Shown: one piece after another, positions 8,040 to 23,525 of the stretch | Numbering within the stretch: the stretch's first letter is position 1 | Layout of the letters: each line of letters starts with the position of its first letter | Virus record (IMG/VR): IMGVR_UViG_3300006641_000150 | Location: 1 to 26,434 of that record | Direction: 5' to 3' (one strand) | Length of the DNA stretch: 26,434 bases | DNA from: a virus | Made by a program: the position numbers and the translations under genes | The notes under the pieces: generated by a model | Seen by the model: only the letters and a program-made list of their open reading frames with translations | Told to the model about the DNA's origin: nothing | Database searches by the model: none

Positions 8040-11000
8040 TTAAATTCCTAACAAACGTCTAAGTTTTAGTGACCTAACATTCCATACGGCTTTTTGTTCT
8101 TCTTCAGGCGTTCCTTCTACATCGCCCGTGTAATCTTCAGATAGCTGCATACGCATTGGCAAGATACCTTCAGTTTCAACAACGCGAGTACCTGGCGGTG
8201 GGTTATACACTGGTTTATTAACAACGGCTGTCGGTTGTTCAACAATAACTTCAGGAACCTCTGGTGTTATGACTGGTGGCTCTGGCAACACGGGTTTTAT
8301 AGTTGGTGTTGGAACTTCTTCAGGTGTTGTCTGTTCCGTAATAATCTGTTGCAACAATATGTCTTCCGGTGGGGTTTCAACAACCGGTGGTGGCTTTGGC
8401 GCTTCTGGTTCTAGTTTTGGAGGAACAATATCTACAGTTGGTGTAGGCGTTATATCCTCAGTAGGCGTAACTGTTGGTGTAACCGTCGGTGTTACGGTCG
8501 GAGTAACTGTTGGGGTTACCGTTGGGGTGACGGTGGGGGTTACAGTAGGAGTTACGGTTGGCGTAACAGTCGGTGTAACAGATGGAGTAGCTGTAACGGA
8601 GGTTGCCGTACCTGTCGAAGTATCGACTGTAACTTGTGTTCCTGTTGTTAATTTTGTGCCAGTTGTTGTATCCATTGTTGGAACAACTGCTACACCCCCA
8701 TTTGTTACTAGAACAGTTGAAGTGCCGTCATTATTGTTGTTCAAAACAATACCTGACGTTAAGTTTGCATTTGCTGCAAGCGCAGCATCAATCAATGCCT
8801 GACCAGTAATGCCGCCTGTTGGTGCCACTGCACCGGTTGTTATTGGTTGGACGGCACCTGTAAAGTCTGGTGCTGTAGCCGCGCTAACAAGCGTTCCGGC
8901 CCCAGCCAAAGAGCCGCTAGTTATAGGCGCAACGCTGGTTAACGTATTATTACCGGATAGAGTAAGCGTTTGGCCTGTGTCGACTTGTGCACCAGTAGCA
9001 GCATCTATTGCCGGTACAACTTTCGTATTACCACCTGCATCAATAACAAGTGCTGTATTATTTGAAGGCACGACAGATACAACAACAACCGTATTACCAG
9101 ACGGTGCTGCAGTTGTTACAGACTCAGGCGTTGCTGTAACGCCTCCAGATGAATCCATAACCACTGACTGACCAACATTGATACGTTGCCCCGTGGTCGT
9201 ATCTACTGAAGGAACAACGCTAGCACCACCATCTTCCGTTACAACCAGTGAGTTATTACCATCTTGACTAACTACTGTGCCTGTAACTGCCTTGCCTGTA
9301 ACAACCAGTTGTCCAAGATTAGTTGGCCCTACATCTGCCGCAACCGTTGGGTCAATGCTAGGAAGAACCTTTTGCTCTCCCTCCATTGTTGCGGTAACTT
9401 TCCCTGCCGCAAGTGCTGCGGTAAGCGCTTGACCAAAAGCAGTTGCGTTACTTTCTCCTGCCGCTTTGGCTTGCAAAAATGTCTCAACCGCTTCGCCAGC
9501 AGTTTCTTTTGCCACTCTTCCTGCAACCGTACCACCACCTGGTGTTACATCTGTTAAAAATTCAGTAACAAATGTAATTAAACCGTCTACACCACCAGAA
9601 ATTCTTGCTTGCTGCATGGCTTGATCTGGCGGCACACCTCTGCTAATGAGATTTTGATAGACCTCATCAAACTTGCTACCAAATGATTCAAAAGCTCCCT
9701 TAGTGCCTTCAATTGCACCAACGACAGCTCTTACTGGTAGATTCAAGGAAAGACCGTATTGAGCAAGCTCAGTTAATTCTTGAACCCTTTCCTTGCCAAA
9801 TATGCCTAATGCAGCGCCAAAGTTGTCAGATAAATTAGACCCTATATCTCGAACAAGTTGTAATTTGTCGCCCGTTTGTTCATACGTTTTGAAAGCATCT
9901 ACATTGCGTTGTAGATAATCCTTTTCTGATGCTCGGTATGCACCAGACTGCAAAAGCTGACCTGACTTTTCAATGTCAGCCGATAAATTTCTTACATCGC
10001 TAGGTACATTCCCTGTTGCGCCTTGCACTCCAGCGGCCTGTGCTTTGTAGTATTCGCCAAGCGCTTCCTGGAATAAACCTCCAACAGTACCAACAGCCTG
10101 CGTAGCTTGCGTTCCTGCGGTGTATGTTGTCTTGTCTTGTAAGATATTTCCAGCAGCATCGAACGTAACAACATTGCCGACACGATCTGTTTGCGTCGTA
10201 GTGCCGTCAGGATTCTTGGTGATCTTTAAGTTAAACGATGGTGCATTAGGGTCAAGTTCTCCGACCAAAGCCATCGTACTTAAATTAGACGATGATGGGC
10301 CTTCGGCTGCCGTAGCAGGATCAAATGTTTTAAGACTACCTTTGTATCTTGCGTCGGCTGGAAGTTCTAACTCCTCACCCATTGATGCGCCAGCTCTTGC
10401 AAGCGCACCACCACTTACTTGTGTTGCTTGACCTTCAGAGGGTTGATACTGAGTTAATTTTCCCGTCGTTCTATCTACAACCCAAATTGTTCCATTGGGC
10501 TGTTCGTAATAATCAGCAAGGGGATATTGAAAATTCTTCTGTTGAGCCTCTGATTGTGTTGCAATTTGTTGTAGCTGTGTACCGCCGCCTGTTTGTACAA
10601 CTGATGTTTCTGGCGTTGCCACGCCAACTGAAAGACCACCAGTAGGCACAGTAGGTATGCCAACCTCAAAGCCTGCACTGTCTCCACCAGTAGTCGTTGT
10701 TGTTGTTGTTGATGGCGTTTCACTTGCAGGCACTCCAGGAATCGTAGTTGTTCCTGTGCCAGCACGTTGAGAACCAGCCACTGCCCCTGTTATAGCAGAC
10801 TGCAACACATCACCGCCGGTAAGCGCTGCACCTGTTGCACTTGTAAGCGCCGAGGCAAGTGCGCTATCAGTAACGGCATCGCCAGTTGGCTTAAAGTCAG
10901 CAAGCCCTGTCTGCCCTGCAATCTGTACAGCCGTGTTAATTGCTGCTTTTGATACGTCTTGGCCTGTCGCCGCAGCAGAGGCTATGTTGCTTACAGCACG

Positions 11001-18880: not shown

Positions 18881-19891
18881 TTACAGCGTAAGCGAGTTGA
18901 GACCAGTCACCTTGGTCATGCTCTTAGGCTTGGTGCTCACCAATTCTGCAATGGTCAACACAGCGCCAACATAACCAATCTGCCAGTTAGGCAGGGTGGA
19001 CTCAAAGCCCGTAAAGGCAAACTCGGCTTGATCGTGGATGTACATACTCATGTAGTTCGTATTGAGCAAGTACAGCGTACCTTCTGGGCAGTACGGATCA
19101 GGATAGATCGGAACGCCAGCAACCATCAGCGCACGGAAACCAGACGTTGGGCCTTCTTCACCGTTAGCAAAGCTGCTTCCAGGTGTGATCATGTAGGTTT
19201 CTTGGCCTACAAAGTCTTGCGCCAACAACGTCCAGGTACCAAAGCCGCAAACACCAAAGGTCGGAACTTCAGCGCCGTTCTTTACCGTGCCAGAAATGTA
19301 CTGCAAGATGTTCTGACGGGTTGGGTTAACCGAGCCAGCAGCATACTGCTTAGATTTCCACCAAGTGTAGGTCGAGCGATTGATATTGCCATAGGTTGCA
19401 GTACCCGTGCCATCATCAACAGCCGCTGCCAAGCCAATGAACTGCTGGGCGTTGGTGGTGTTGGTGTAAAGCGCAGTTGCCATTGCATCCATCATGACGT
19501 TGGTCGCATCGTTCATGCGAGCCTCAATCAAAGGAATCACAGCATAGTCTTGCTGAACCGCACCTTCCATACCGAGGAAGGGAACCGGCGCAATCATGAG
19601 CTTGAGGTTGAACTCAGCGTTGTAAGCACCTTGCTGAACGGCAGGCTGTGCAAACGAACCGCTGTAGTCTGACCACTGAGCGTTGACAAATTGCGAACCC
19701 TGAACAGGCACCGTTACAGACGACACACCACCAGAGGCGGTTTGCGAGTTTGCAAGCAGTGCAGCAAGCAGGGGAGTGGAGTTGTAAAGCTGGACAACCA
19801 GTTTGGGAATAAACGCCCTACGGGTGACGTAGGTCAGTTCATTGTACTGACTGGTGCCGCTTGCTGGGATGATACCGCCACCAATAGGCAT
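18881..19891 (-). CDS. Major capsid protein (336 aa)
   Basis: The likely shell protein (HK97 fold presumed). The N-terminus is short, and no long cleaved scaffold-type delta region is seen. Features include YNELTYVTRRAFIPKLVVQL, then LLAALLANSQTASGGVSSVTVP, NAQWSDYSGSF, an acidic/Met-rich helix (EARMNDATNVMMDAMATALY) and the C-terminal AEFAFTGFESTLPNWQIGYV. Length and order fit a P22-like or podoviral coat protein. AGAGGA lies 9 nt before the ATG. It follows the coiled-coil scaffold candidate directly and precedes small beta proteins, the standard head-gene order. I assign it mainly from context and composition; there is no single diagnostic motif. Confidence 0.85.
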   Translation of the reverse strand: MPIGGGIIPASGTSQYNELTYVTRRAFIPKLVVQLYNSTPLLAALLANSQTASGGVSSVTVPVQGSQFVNAQWSDYSGSFAQPAVQQGAYNAEFNLKLMIAPVPFLGMEGAVQQDYAVIPLIEARMNDATNVMMDAMATALYTNTTNAQQFIGLAAAVDDGTGTATYGNINRSTYTWWKSKQYAAGSVNPTRQNILQYISGTVKNGAEVPTFGVCGFGTWTLLAQDFVGQETYMITPGSSFANGEEGPTSGFRALMVAGVPIYPDPYCPEGTLYLLNTNYMSMYIHDQAEFAFTGFESTLPNWQIGYVGAVLTIAELVSTKPKSMTKVTGLNSLTL

Positions 19892-20484: not shown

Positions 20485-20664
20485 TTAGATGACTCGCTTG
20501 GTGTCCCCAGGCTTGCTGAGGGTCATGCGATTCTTAGTAACTTTGTTTGATGAATTCAAACCACCAAATTGCTCAAAGCGAGGGGGGTTGGTGATCTGAC
20601 CATTTTGCTGTTGATTGTCGGTTGGGCGACGAATCGTGCCAGCGCGAGGACGAAACAATTCCAT
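20485..20664 (-). CDS. Small basic protein (59 aa) between endonuclease and scaffold
   Basis: MELFRPRAGTIRRPTDNQQQ, ending TLSKPGDTKRVI. It is low-complexity (Gln/Asn/Arg), basic and probably disordered. An AAAGGA ribosome site lies 6 nt upstream, overlapping the stop of the HNH gene. The clean gap to each neighbour and the strong ribosome site support translation. The function is unknown. Small head-region proteins of this kind often help assembly, but nothing in the sequence proves it. Confidence 0.6.
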   Translation of the reverse strand: MELFRPRAGTIRRPTDNQQQNGQITNPPRFEQFGGLNSSNKVTKNRMTLSKPGDTKRVI

Positions 20665-20674
20665 AAAAAGTCCT

Positions 20675-21139
20675 TTAATGAAGTGTTTTCCAAATCTTGC
20701 GATTTACGATGTCGTTCACCGTTTTCCGGTTTACACCATAAATTGAAGCAAGTCTAAAACAGGAATACTTTCCTGTGTCATGCAAATCACGAATTTCGAG
20801 AACTTGAGAATTCGTTAATTTATTTCTACCATGACCCATGCCATAAGCATGATTACCTCTATTCCTTACTTCTCTGTCTATTGCGTTGTCTTTGTAAGTT
20901 CCAAGATATAAGTGCCTAGGATTCACGCAATAGGGGTTGTCACATCTATGCAGGACAGACAGCCCATCAGGAATAGGCCCAGAATACAACTTATAAGCAA
21001 CTCGATGTGCAAGCTCCCAAGTTTGGCCTTCAAACACAAATTTACCGTAACCCTTTTTTGAAGCAGCGGCAGTCCAGATATGGCATTCACAAAAAGGAAT
21101 GCGCTCTACTTTTCGCTCAAATCGTTGAAGGGTGCTCAT
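20675..21139 (-). CDS. HNH homing endonuclease with C-terminal HTH (154 aa)
   Basis: A free-standing HNH endonuclease, probably cutting DNA at a specific site to spread itself. HNH residues are seen in AHR (44-46), then LHRCDNPYCVNPRHLYLGT (63-81) with the catalytic His and Asn/His pairs, and KDN (83-85). The two Cys in CDNPYC and the Cys pair FCEC near residue 17 may bind zinc. The C-terminus (about 107-150, LTNSQVLEIRDLHDTGKYSC then ASIYGVNRKTVNDIV) is a helix-turn-helix DNA reader. The start is the ATG one base after the upstream stop; it lacks a clear ribosome site, so expression may be low or coupled. The longer in-frame reading overlaps the preceding gene and is rejected. It sits as an insertion between two head genes. 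Confidence 0.86.
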   Translation of the reverse strand: MSTLQRFERKVERIPFCECHIWTAAASKKGYGKFVFEGQTWELAHRVAYKLYSGPIPDGLSVLHRCDNPYCVNPRHLYLGTYKDNAIDREVRNRGNHAYGMGHGRNKLTNSQVLEIRDLHDTGKYSCFRLASIYGVNRKTVNDIVNRKIWKTLH

Positions 21140-21140
21140 T

Positions 21141-21617
21141 CTAGATGGGTAATGGCGGGTTTTGAGTCCCAGGGGTTGGTGCCGCAGCCATTGCTCGCAT
21201 CTCAGCCGATGCGCCACCAGCTTGTGGCAGGGTTTGAATCATTTGCATAATATCTGCAGGGGCAAGTTCCTTGGCTTTGTAGTCCATTTCGCCAAATGTG
21301 CTTCCAATCTGGCGAATGACCTCTTTAATAGCCTTAGCCTCTGGAGAACCGTCGGGAAACTTGGGCAAAGCACCCATTAACATGCCCATGCCAAGCTGTA
21401 CATCAATGCGACCCTGCATTTCCTCGCCTTTTTTGGGTTCAGGCGTGGACATGGGTGACGACATAGGCGGTGAAGCAGCACCAGAAAGCGCAGGCATCTC
21501 TTCTTCGCCCTCTTCGCCTTCTTTACCTTCTTTCTCAACTTCAATTTCCATCGATGCTTTGCCGTTTTTGGCACCGCCTCGAATCAACTTCATTAATTCC
21601 TGTGCTGTCACTGACAT
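21141..21617 (-). CDS. Acidic head-region protein (158 aa)
   Basis: A 158-aa protein with a highly acidic stretch (about residues 22-41, MEIEVEKEGKEGEEGEEEMP), then a Pro/Ser/Met linker (SGAASPPMSSPMSTPEPKKG) and a helical domain (about 68-125, GRIDVQLGMGMLMGALPKFP, EAKAIKEVIRQIGSTFGEMD). The end is Ala/Pro-rich. It lies between portal and capsid and is the first gene after the promoter-like element. It could be a scaffold cofactor, a capsid-core protein or a head-assembly protein. AAGGA lies 7 nt upstream. I do not recognise a family. Confidence 0.68.
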   Translation of the reverse strand: MSVTAQELMKLIRGGAKNGKASMEIEVEKEGKEGEEGEEEMPALSGAASPPMSSPMSTPEPKKGEEMQGRIDVQLGMGMLMGALPKFPDGSPEAKAIKEVIRQIGSTFGEMDYKAKELAPADIMQMIQTLPQAGGASAEMRAMAAAPTPGTQNPPLPI

Positions 21618-21637: not shown

Positions 21638-21666
21638 TTTGTAAACGCTTACTAACTTAATGTCAA
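21638..21666 (-). promoter_or_regulatory. Sigma70-like promoter upstream of the head genes
   Basis: On the minus strand, a perfect -35 TTGACA (21666-21661) and -10 TACAAA (21643-21638, 4 of 6) are separated by exactly 17 bp. Transcription would start near 21631, about 14 nt before the ATG at 21617, leaving a short leader that includes the AAGGA ribosome site. It lies in the longest gene-free gap of the window (21618-21670). It would give extra transcripts of the acidic protein, endonuclease, scaffold and capsid genes. Confidence 0.55.
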
Positions 21667-21670
21667 GCGG

Positions 21671-21718
21671 TCAGCGGCGTGATGGTCTTGCACGGCGAAA
21701 CATTTTGCGCTGATACAT
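21671..21718 (-). CDS. Tiny arginine-rich ORF (15 aa)
   Basis: The peptide MYQRKMFRRARPSRR has seven Arg/Lys in 15 residues. The ATG overlaps the upstream stop by one base (TGATG), and AGGAG lies 6 nt before it, the best ribosome site in this part of the window. Size and charge resemble small nucleic-acid-condensing virion peptides such as the J protein of microviruses, but that is only an analogy. It may be a real peptide, or its ribosome site may serve to keep ribosomes moving past the portal operon. The coding status is uncertain. Confidence 0.42.
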   Translation of the reverse strand: MYQRKMFRRARPSRR

Positions 21719-21891
21719 CAGTATCTCCTATTGTCTGAACGGTATGCTGTGCGATTCATGGGCGCACGAACATAAGAAATGCGCGGTGTGCGCTCCATTT
21801 GCTTTAACTCTGTTTGATCAACACGGGCTTGATCGCCTTGTGATCGAAAAGAGGATTGCGAATTATTTGGTGATTGCGAGTTTTCGTTCAT
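21718..21891 (-). CDS. Small basic/polar protein (57 aa) after the portal
   Basis: MNENSQSPNNSQSSFRSQGD leads to RTPRISYVRAPMNRTAYRSD and NRRY. It is disordered-looking, Ser/Asn/Gln-rich at the N-terminus and Arg-rich at the C-terminus. The start shares ATGA with the portal stop, and the stop shares a base with the tiny ORF. The linked overlaps on both sides support expression. The role is unknown; it is the first of two basic small ORFs before the acidic 158-aa protein. Confidence 0.58.
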   Translation of the reverse strand: MNENSQSPNNSQSSFRSQGDQARVDQTELKQMERTPRISYVRAPMNRTAYRSDNRRY

Positions 21892-23525
21892 ACGACCCTC
21901 TGTAACATGGGGCCAGCAGCAGTTTCTGGCTCTGGTTGCGGGTTTTGCATGGTTTGCGCAGCCTGTGCGGCTTGTTCCATCTTACGCAAATCCTCTTTCA
22001 ACAACTGTTTCATTGGTGGTTCAAGGATATCAATGAGTCTTTCCTTGGTCATTGCACCACGATCAGCCAATGCAAAGGCTAAAGAGCGCAAATCTTCCGT
22101 AAAGATGGGTGAATTGCTGTGCGCATCCACTTTCACGACAAAATCATTCGTGAATTGGTTAGGAATGAACTTTTGACCCTCATCATCGACAAAAACACGG
22201 TCAGAATAGACCTGCATACACTTCAAATACAGTGTTGCCATCTTTTCTAGCGCATCTTCGATGATTAATGCCCGTTTTTTAGCCCTGGAAGACCCTAAAC
22301 GAGCTAATTGCGAGGCATGACCAGCACTTCTCACCCCTGATTCACCTCTACCTTGCAGCACATTGACAATACCTGATGCTTCTTCAAACATTCGGTCAAT
22401 TTCTGCGATCTCTCGGAACAAATCATTAGGTATAGAAGGGGCCATTTGCTCAACTTTGGCATTAGGCATGTCGGTTGTAAGCAAACCACCCACTCGATTC
22501 AGTGCAAAGTTCTTCTCATCGAGCAAACCGGTAAAGCCAATAAGCGCTGTAGGCGGTGAAACCTGCTTGGAAAGCAAGTCAAGTATCTCTGTCATGCGTT
22601 TATTGCGCATGTCTTGCAAGAAAACCAGTCTTGCAACCTCAGAAATACCCCAGTAATAGTCATATTGAGGGGTTGGGCAGAGCTGAATAAAGGGCAATTC
22701 ACCTTTTAAGAACATGCTAGCCCCTGAACGATCATAAATAATGACATCAGGGTCAGCAATGGTGACGCACTGGTAGTCATCGGTGTTGTCATTCCACACC
22801 CATAACTCAGTCATACGAATCGTGTCTTCAGCAACCCGTGCTTTGTATTGCTGCATTCCAGCAATATTCAGATTCACATTGCCATACATCGTTGGGTCAG
22901 TGGCTGACAGAATCAGTCGCTGAATCCCATCAGGCACTTGGTTTTCCTGGCTTTGCCCTTGTTGCACCCTTGCTAGCAGTGCATCACGGTTGGGATGCGA
23001 ATAAAGCCTTGCATAGAGTTCAGACTTGGTGATGTAGTAAATCTGAACCAAGGCTTCTTGCCTATCAGTGTAGGGCGTATCTTCACGCAGCACCCCAATA
23101 CAGCGTGGGTCAACCATGTAAGGGTGGATACCCTTCTTAGGGATGAGCTTAATGAAGGTTGAGTTGTAGCAAAGCGCCCAATTGAGCGCTTGGGCAAACA
23201 CCTGATCAGCGTTGCTATTGAGCCAATCGTCATTCAAAGCGCCTGTAAGCGCTGGAATCTTAGTTTGCTCATGGGGATTGATGGATGCACCCAGGCTTAT
23301 AGAAAAGCGTGTGGTCTCTGCCGAGTAGAGAAAGGAGGAGAGTTGATCAATGTGCGGGTAAATCTTGTTGTAGTAGGCAGGTGGTGCGTCTAAACCAGAG
23401 CCAAACAAATAATAAGAGCGCAACGAGTCATAAGTTCCCGTGCGCTCCTGGATGCTAACCGAGCATTTGTCCTTCAAATCATTGTAAAACAGCTCACGTT
23501 CAACGAGGTCTTCAGGAATGATCAT
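21888..23525 (-). CDS. Portal protein (545 aa)
   Basis: The dodecameric DNA entry ring of the head, placed two genes after the large terminase. Support includes length, order, and portal-like features: an N-terminal helix region (ELFYNDLKDKCSVSIQERTG), the stretch WALCYNSTFIKLIPKK (116-131), a central WGISEVARLVFLQDMRNKRM (about 294-313), the clip/stem region with LLSKQVSPPTALIGF, and a long C-terminal helical part (RAKKRALIIEDALEKMATLY). The tail is Gln/Ala/Pro-rich (EQAAQAAQTMQNPQPEPETA), like the barrel end of P22-type portals. The start shares ATGA with the previous gene. Confidence is high from context and pattern together. Confidence 0.86.
   Translation of the reverse strand: MIIPEDLVERELFYNDLKDKCSVSIQERTGTYDSLRSYYLFGSGLDAPPAYYNKIYPHIDQLSSFLYSAETTRFSISLGASINPHEQTKIPALTGALNDDWLNSNADQVFAQALNWALCYNSTFIKLIPKKGIHPYMVDPRCIGVLREDTPYTDRQEALVQIYYITKSELYARLYSHPNRDALLARVQQGQSQENQVPDGIQRLILSATDPTMYGNVNLNIAGMQQYKARVAEDTIRMTELWVWNDNTDDYQCVTIADPDVIIYDRSGASMFLKGELPFIQLCPTPQYDYYWGISEVARLVFLQDMRNKRMTEILDLLSKQVSPPTALIGFTGLLDEKNFALNRVGGLLTTDMPNAKVEQMAPSIPNDLFREIAEIDRMFEEASGIVNVLQGRGESGVRSAGHASQLARLGSSRAKKRALIIEDALEKMATLYLKCMQVYSDRVFVDDEGQKFIPNQFTNDFVVKVDAHSNSPIFTEDLRSLAFALADRGAMTKERLIDILEPPMKQLLKEDLRKMEQAAQAAQTMQNPQPEPETAAGPMLQRVV

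Follow-up and report, generated by a model that had tools for sequence, protein, structure and literature searches.

The closest described systems to the gene considered here are the arginine-rich motif of lambda N, protein J (VP8) of the microviruses phiX174 and SpV4, and the core peptide mu (protein X) of adenovirus. The lambda N-type motif is a short arginine-rich segment able to bind an RNA hairpin, and it belongs to a longer protein with further contacts. The J proteins have 24-37 residues, and the fold of the microvirus capsid differs from that of tailed phages. One account has J coating DNA at about 120 copies per RF molecule (PMC13386984), and in another J remains inside the capsid, with its C-terminal end buried there (PMC11281519). 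Mu is reported as a peptide of 19 residues present at about 100-300 copies per virion (PMC7998265).

The gene compared with these systems, here called T1, is a micro-ORF in the window, that is, the whole stretch of 26,434 nucleotides that was analysed (IMG/VR virus record IMGVR_UViG_3300006641_000150). Like J, its product is very short, highly basic and viral; J belongs to ssDNA phages, whereas T1 has 15 residues and is carried by a dsDNA tailed phage, and the likeness is one of principle only. In place of the genome and capsid of an ssDNA microvirus, the gene string around T1 contains an SU10-type portal, a terminase and a tailed-phage major head protein. T1 and mu are both arginine-rich, but mu is an animal-virus peptide released by cleavage of a 79-residue precursor, whereas T1 is a free-standing gene of 15 codons with its own start, ribosome site and stop, in a frame that varies relative to that of the preceding 57-aa gene. 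Unlike the lambda N motif, T1 is a basic peptide alone, and no RNA target for it was found in the window. Its 15 residues lie below the 20-aa minimum of profile searches, its likeness to J and mu is by features only, and no membership in either family is claimed. The features of the locus, in sense order, are:

21888..23525, minus strand, portal gene of SU10 type (PF23899, 42 bits against a cut-off of 30)
21891..21718, minus strand, 57-aa gene (net charge +4), a conserved small protein with a D-Q-x-R core and a basic tail
21729-21725, minus strand, AGGAG ribosome-binding site of the micro-ORF, with a 6-nt spacer to the ATG
21718..21671, minus strand, micro-ORF T1, 15 aa from ATG to TGA, MYQRKMFRRARPSRR
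21666..21638, minus strand, promoter-like element TTGACA-N17-TACAAA, between the micro-ORF and the 158-aa gene
21617..21141, minus strand, acidic 158-aa gene (net charge -7), the downstream neighbour of the micro-ORF
18881..19891, minus strand, major capsid protein gene (phrog_9953, E 5.4e-39), 3' of the promoter-like element

The string begins with the terminase large subunit, followed by genes of 136 and 145 aa, the portal, the 57-aa gene and the micro-ORF; beyond the promoter-like element come the 158-aa gene, an HNH gene, genes of 59 and 186 aa and the major capsid protein. The D, Q and R of the D-Q-P-R core of the 57-aa protein are invariant in 33 aligned sequences. Neither this protein nor the 158-aa protein had a Pfam or PHROG match at E 0.01. 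The predicted structure of the latter is largely of low confidence (mean pLDDT 65.6), and its model retrieved nothing from BFVD with E <=0.001. A homing-type HNH endonuclease gene (HNH_3) occupies 20675-21140, between the 158-aa and 59-aa genes. An extra 480-487 nt at this place occur in the window, L019 and L110 (three of 162 loci, duplicates included), the HNH assignment being that of the window copy. The 59-aa gene (20485-20664) encodes a protein with a mean net charge of 6 to 7 in the groups compared, and at 8459-8589 a 1250-aa gene contains imperfect tandem repeats of 12, 24 and 36 bases.

An earlier, sequence-only reading of this DNA had described a 15-residue ORF with seven positive residues, beginning on a TGATG overlap with the preceding stop, preceded by AGGAG at 6 nt and lying directly before a promoter-like element. 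All of this was recovered on the minus strand, which that reading had left unnamed: MYQRKMFRRARPSRR has seven K/R and no D/E (charge +7 by count), its ATG shares one base with the stop of the 57-aa gene, and the promoter-like element begins 4 nt past its stop codon. The flanking proteins are basic and acidic as had been stated; the label 'head gene' given to the 158-aa gene reflects position only. When strong basic micro-ORFs are defined by an ATG, a Shine-Dalgarno match of at least five bases and a net charge per residue of at least 0.4, the one at 21718..21671 is the only member of the class in the window. Seven of 100 dinucleotide shuffles of the window also contain at least one basic micro-ORF of equal strength. 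Judged on the window alone, the micro-ORF is only mildly unusual; it stands well beyond chance because it is conserved among relatives, as seen in its intact frame, its substitution pattern and its density at one junction, all given below.

The promoter-like element is the sole mismatch-free match in the window to TTGACA-N17-TACAAA, where matches with up to two mismatches number six against 3.5 expected by chance; a general promoter scan, which demands T at the last position, omitted it. Among related loci, 134 of 142 have a TTGAC box no more than 110 nt from the start of the 158-aa gene, and in 119 the distance is 46-57 nt. As judged by eye, the spacer of this box often holds an inverted repeat in relatives. 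Since the box is 3' of the micro-ORF in the window, a transcript starting from it would exclude the micro-ORF; read-through transcription from the portal string may nevertheless extend over the element.

Relatives were taken from a portal search of viral contigs (best 80 loci), and the distinct junction sequences whose portal was more than 84% identical form a close group of 45, the window being one. The frame of the micro-ORF is intact in 45 of 45. Variants of the peptide include MFQRKMLRRSRPSRR, MMQRKMLRYARPSRR, MMQRKMLRRSRPYRR, MYQRKMLRRARPSRR and a few others, and the group amounts to seven peptides from 19 distinct nucleotide sequences. Across these 19, pN/pS is 0.233 in frame and 1.38 and 3.20 in the two shifted frames, while the third codon position varies in 12 of 14 codons and the first and second in 5 of 14 each. 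The amino acids are conserved and the codons are not, which is the pattern of purifying selection on a protein-coding gene. The start overlaps the prior stop, as TGATG or CATG, in 42 of 45 junctions; in the other three it follows one base after the stop (ATTGATATG). Because the frame relative to the 57-aa gene varies in this way, a frameshift fusion of the two genes is unlikely. Ribosome-site matches are also present in the relatives, in a listing confined to ORFs that match over 4 nt or more. Alignment of the junction in related phages, which the sequence-only reading had proposed as its check, came out in its favour: the ATG, the arginine pattern and the ribosome site are retained, changes favour synonymous sites, and no close relative keeps the ribosome site with the frame lost. 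These comparisons strongly support the micro-ORF as a genuine conserved phage gene.

A wider set was assembled from capsid- and portal-profile searches of viral contigs (the best 80 among the matches listed for each) together with five MAG contigs. It holds 180 loci with the whole portal-to-158-aa interval, which reduce to 152 distinct junction sequences. With the family defined as basic ORFs of 9-30 aa with a ribosome site between the portal and 158-aa genes, a definition under which the window micro-ORF was itself detected by the same scan, one or more members (usually one or two) occur in 141 of the 152, a count corrected by removing spurious hits at two loci (L117, L122) and adding one just under threshold (L143). 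The uncorrected scan gave two micro-ORFs in 68 junctions, one in 66, three in seven, four in one and none in ten; some extra matches within multi-ORF loci (e.g. L140, L146, L150) are probably chance. The densities of strong micro-ORFs, the charge correlations and the strict-pseudoknot counts reported below rest on the uncorrected rows (142 positive loci).

Two kinds of peptide recur. T1 follows the pattern MY..KR.RKTRR, of which the window peptide MYQRKMFRRARPSRR is a diverged form, and T2 follows MARKARKGRKGRK or MRKARKGRKSRK. Family peptides are mostly of 10-15 residues, reaching up to 27, and about 50-70% Lys/Arg; longer T1 peptides of 20-27 residues occur in L109, L113, L129, L131, L143 and L163, and longer T2 peptides of 19-24 residues in L188, L194 and their kin. 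Among distinct peptides, initial Met excluded, K+R make up 55% of T1 and 68% of T2 and acidic residues less than 1%; the two sets were separated by pattern with slight mixing, some T2-like peptides having fallen into T1 and some T1-like ones into T2. K and R replace each other; the remaining residues are mainly A/G/S in T2 and Y/M/T/G/S/A in T1. Three further peptide groups gave pN/pS of 0.425, 0.265 and 0.289, with all shifted frames above 1.3; these groups were picked by peptide pattern, so their ratios are biased down somewhat, whereas the first group comprised all close relatives. Tandem triplets of micropeptide genes with a different spacer were also seen (L106, L107, L121, L140, L159, L191), with peptides such as MYKSVKRSRRGKRR, MAKRKGRKAKR and MRKGRKGRKARR.

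On a portal tree of 67 rows, from which near-copies had been thinned, T1 occurs on either side of the deepest split under midpoint rooting and is therefore probably ancestral. The tree includes four of the 11 loci that lack a micropeptide, and one locus labelled T1 (L083) carries both T1 and T2; on it the micropeptide-less state needs at least three changes and the 'T2 only' state three. The 11 of 152 junctions without a micropeptide indicate that it is dispensable in some lineages. Family contigs L163-L167 come from MAGs labelled Balneolaceae, beta proteobacterium (two), Legionella and Alphaproteobacteria, labels that possibly reflect binned virus contigs rather than the host. The window micro-ORF looks like a member of an unannotated family of very short basic peptides encoded beside head genes in many uncultured phages.

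The family is closely tied to one place in the genome. In related loci, strong basic micro-ORFs number 163 in 77.9 kb of junctions (2.09 per kb), against four in the other 1092 kb of that strand (0.0037 per kb) and five in 1170 kb on the reverse strand. Two DNA-pattern scans of the viral collection, blind to context and each a sample of 120 stretches among the matches listed, returned 219 loci under new ids, some being contigs already in the set under other ids. All 254 occurrences among the matches listed lie within 458 nt of the family's portal or 158-aa gene, and no occurrence away from these genes was found among them. Two deposited relatives, MW202825 and MW202753, carry exactly two strong micro-ORFs each in the whole genome. 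In both, GenBank antisense ORFs are annotated over the unannotated micropeptide genes (L446:25683-25943, plus strand, and L447:4740-5038, minus strand, respectively), which illustrates how easily genes this short are missed.

Codon usage, compared across related loci, points in the direction of strong translation. CGT and CGC make up 86% of the arginine codons of the micro-ORFs, against 59% in the portal, 49% in the terminase, 77% in the capsid and 89% in the 59-aa gene of the same loci, and AGA, AGG and CGA account for 44 of 953 arginine codons in the micro-ORFs where 270 would be expected from portal usage at the same loci. Such optimality fits high expression of the micro-ORFs. Since the 59-aa gene is equally rich in these codons, they mark expression and not function; its own highly optimal arginine codons suggest that the 59-aa protein is abundant.

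The reading we prefer, and to which we give slightly less than an even chance, is that the micro-ORF is a selected gene for a 15-residue cationic peptide that binds nucleic acid during head assembly or packaging. T1 is the last gene of the terminase-portal string, with the promoter-like element next and the head genes after it. Its peptide would be made abundantly late in infection and would bind nucleic acid by charge; once bound, it would neutralise or condense the DNA, or link it to the capsid, while heads assemble and DNA is packaged, and in this way T1 would be a counterpart, in very short form, of microvirus J or adenovirus mu. The computation shows a micro-ORF that evolves as genes do, is conserved, occupies this position, has optimal arginine codons and encodes a peptide whose charge is not matched by that of the 158-aa protein; translation, high expression, nucleic-acid binding and a role in packaging are what we infer. 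Counting against it are the 11 of 152 junctions that do without a micropeptide, and the placing of the gene with the portal and not the capsid, upstream of the box before the head genes. Charge, moreover, cannot tell binding to DNA, RNA or protein apart, and a pseudoknot found before T2 may point just as well to RNA binding and regulation as the family's role.

In relatives with both peptides, this H-type pseudoknot usually lies in the T1-T2 spacer (62-81 nt in 43 aligned), directly 5' of the T2 ribosome site. From 66 distinct spacers, 11 without a TGGCT anchor were dropped, and 44 distinct cores were aligned (L172:5862-5900 and 43 others). In these, 94.5% of cells pair and both sides change at five of 12 pairs; adding two outer pairs lowers the paired cells to 89.4%. 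The covariation score, for a structure drawn from the same sequences that were scored, is 0.236 against 0.079 in shuffles, none of which reached it in 500, and sliding the structure gives no more than 0.113. Rfam gave no match at gathering scores for the window and 11 loci, nor at E up to 1 for six loci. A strict pseudoknot pattern was found in 63 of the 68 junctions with exactly two micro-ORFs and in none of the 84 others, although it overlooks variants recognised by eye (L133, L134, L137, L139, L141 and perhaps L150); variants before T2 were also seen by eye in lineages without T1. Scanning with the pattern gave 87 distinct matches among those listed. T2 lies 3' of every one of the 85 that no contig end truncates, and 80 of 86 have a T1-like ORF on the 5' side, a few such ORFs being due to chance (e.g. 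MRSMRQISRT, 3). By these counts the pseudoknot is associated with T2, and it is possibly a translational control element of that gene. The window has no T2 and no match to the strict pattern.

The pseudoknot, covarying and placed right before T2, is an obvious candidate target if T1 were an arginine-rich-motif RNA-binding regulator of late expression, possibly of its own or its sister peptide's, that is not packaged. Peptides rich in Arg and Lys of such length are able to bind RNA, and the micro-ORF sits at a transcription boundary. However, the window and the close group retain the peptide without the pseudoknot pattern, and neither a structured target in the window nor an Rfam match at gathering scores was found. 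We regard this regulatory role as improbable, though it survives better than the other alternatives.

A less probable proposal is that T1 is a host-directed cationic peptide, acting for example on ribosomes, membranes or nucleases, that merely happens to sit in the late region. Host-takeover genes are usually variable and early. T1 keeps its site amid packaging and head genes across the compared loci, and the matches listed by the pattern scans include none elsewhere. In favour of the proposal, one review describes certain phage small proteins that target the host (PMC11323111).

The sequence-only reading had also suggested that the peptide may be a partner of the acidic protein. A partnership in which T1 balances the charge of the 158-aa protein, or serves it as an assembly cofactor, would have in its favour the gene adjacency in the loci compared and the opposite charges in the window (+7 and -7). 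Across 142 loci, however, a higher micropeptide charge goes with a less acidic 158-aa homologue (Spearman +0.65, for which no P value is given because the loci are related by descent), and at the micropeptide-less loci that were printed it remains acidic, with a net charge of -6 to -11. Both results argue against charge partnership; charge matching was rejected on the correlation, and 11 of 152 junctions have no micropeptide to serve as partner. The conserved promoter-like element also separates the two genes, and the partnership is, in our judgement, unlikely. A trade-off of micropeptide charge with other proteins showed no simple pattern in the related sequences: the coefficients are +0.31 for the capsid, +0.06 for the 59-aa protein, -0.62 for the 186-aa protein and +0.44 for the portal, and a value of -0.95 for the 57-aa protein, from 25 one-micropeptide loci only, is given no interpretation.

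It is very improbable that the micro-ORF is a leader or attenuator, in which the act of translation and not the product controls the downstream genes. Such a role would suit a short basic ORF at an operon boundary, and 22 of 142 loci have terminator-like hairpins between it and the 158-aa gene; yet none of the 45 close-group junctions has such a hairpin, the promoter-like element comes after the ORF, K and R interchange, amino acids rather than codons are conserved, and the arginine codons are optimal where a stalling leader would need rare or diagnostic ones. That the ORF is untranslated and its DNA conserved for some other reason is likewise very improbable, since its extreme shortness and the seven shuffled windows in 100 with an equally strong ORF are set against a pN/pS of 0.233 with shifted frames above 1.3, ribosome sites in relatives and 254 of 254 listed blind-scan matches adjoining the same genes.

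The preferred reading, a cationic peptide acting on nucleic acid at head assembly or packaging, may be extended from the window to the family, although we hold the extension to be doubtful. Widespread dsDNA tailed phages would then encode free-standing 'mini-protamines' of 10-15 codons, abundant and either enclosed in the virion or acting while DNA is packaged; they would often come in twos or threes, the second being controlled by a new RNA pseudoknot. No account of such peptides, of strings of them or of the RNA was found in the literature searched; the survey of Fremin et al. 2022, reportedly the key one on phage small genes, may list them. ORFs of this size could also be contained in a global smORF catalogue whose lower limit is 30 nt (PMC11364881), and an earlier listing of these ORFs without further study is possible.

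If the peptide is packaged, dsDNA phages would gain a charge-neutralising component, which models of genome packing and ejection would have to include, and if the mini-protamine reading is true, few virion or assembly proteins encoded directly would be shorter than these peptides. The family, in which T1 spans both halves of the portal tree, is deep enough for genetics once a member is cultured, and T1 and T2 together offer a natural set of minimal predicted nucleic-acid-binding peptides.
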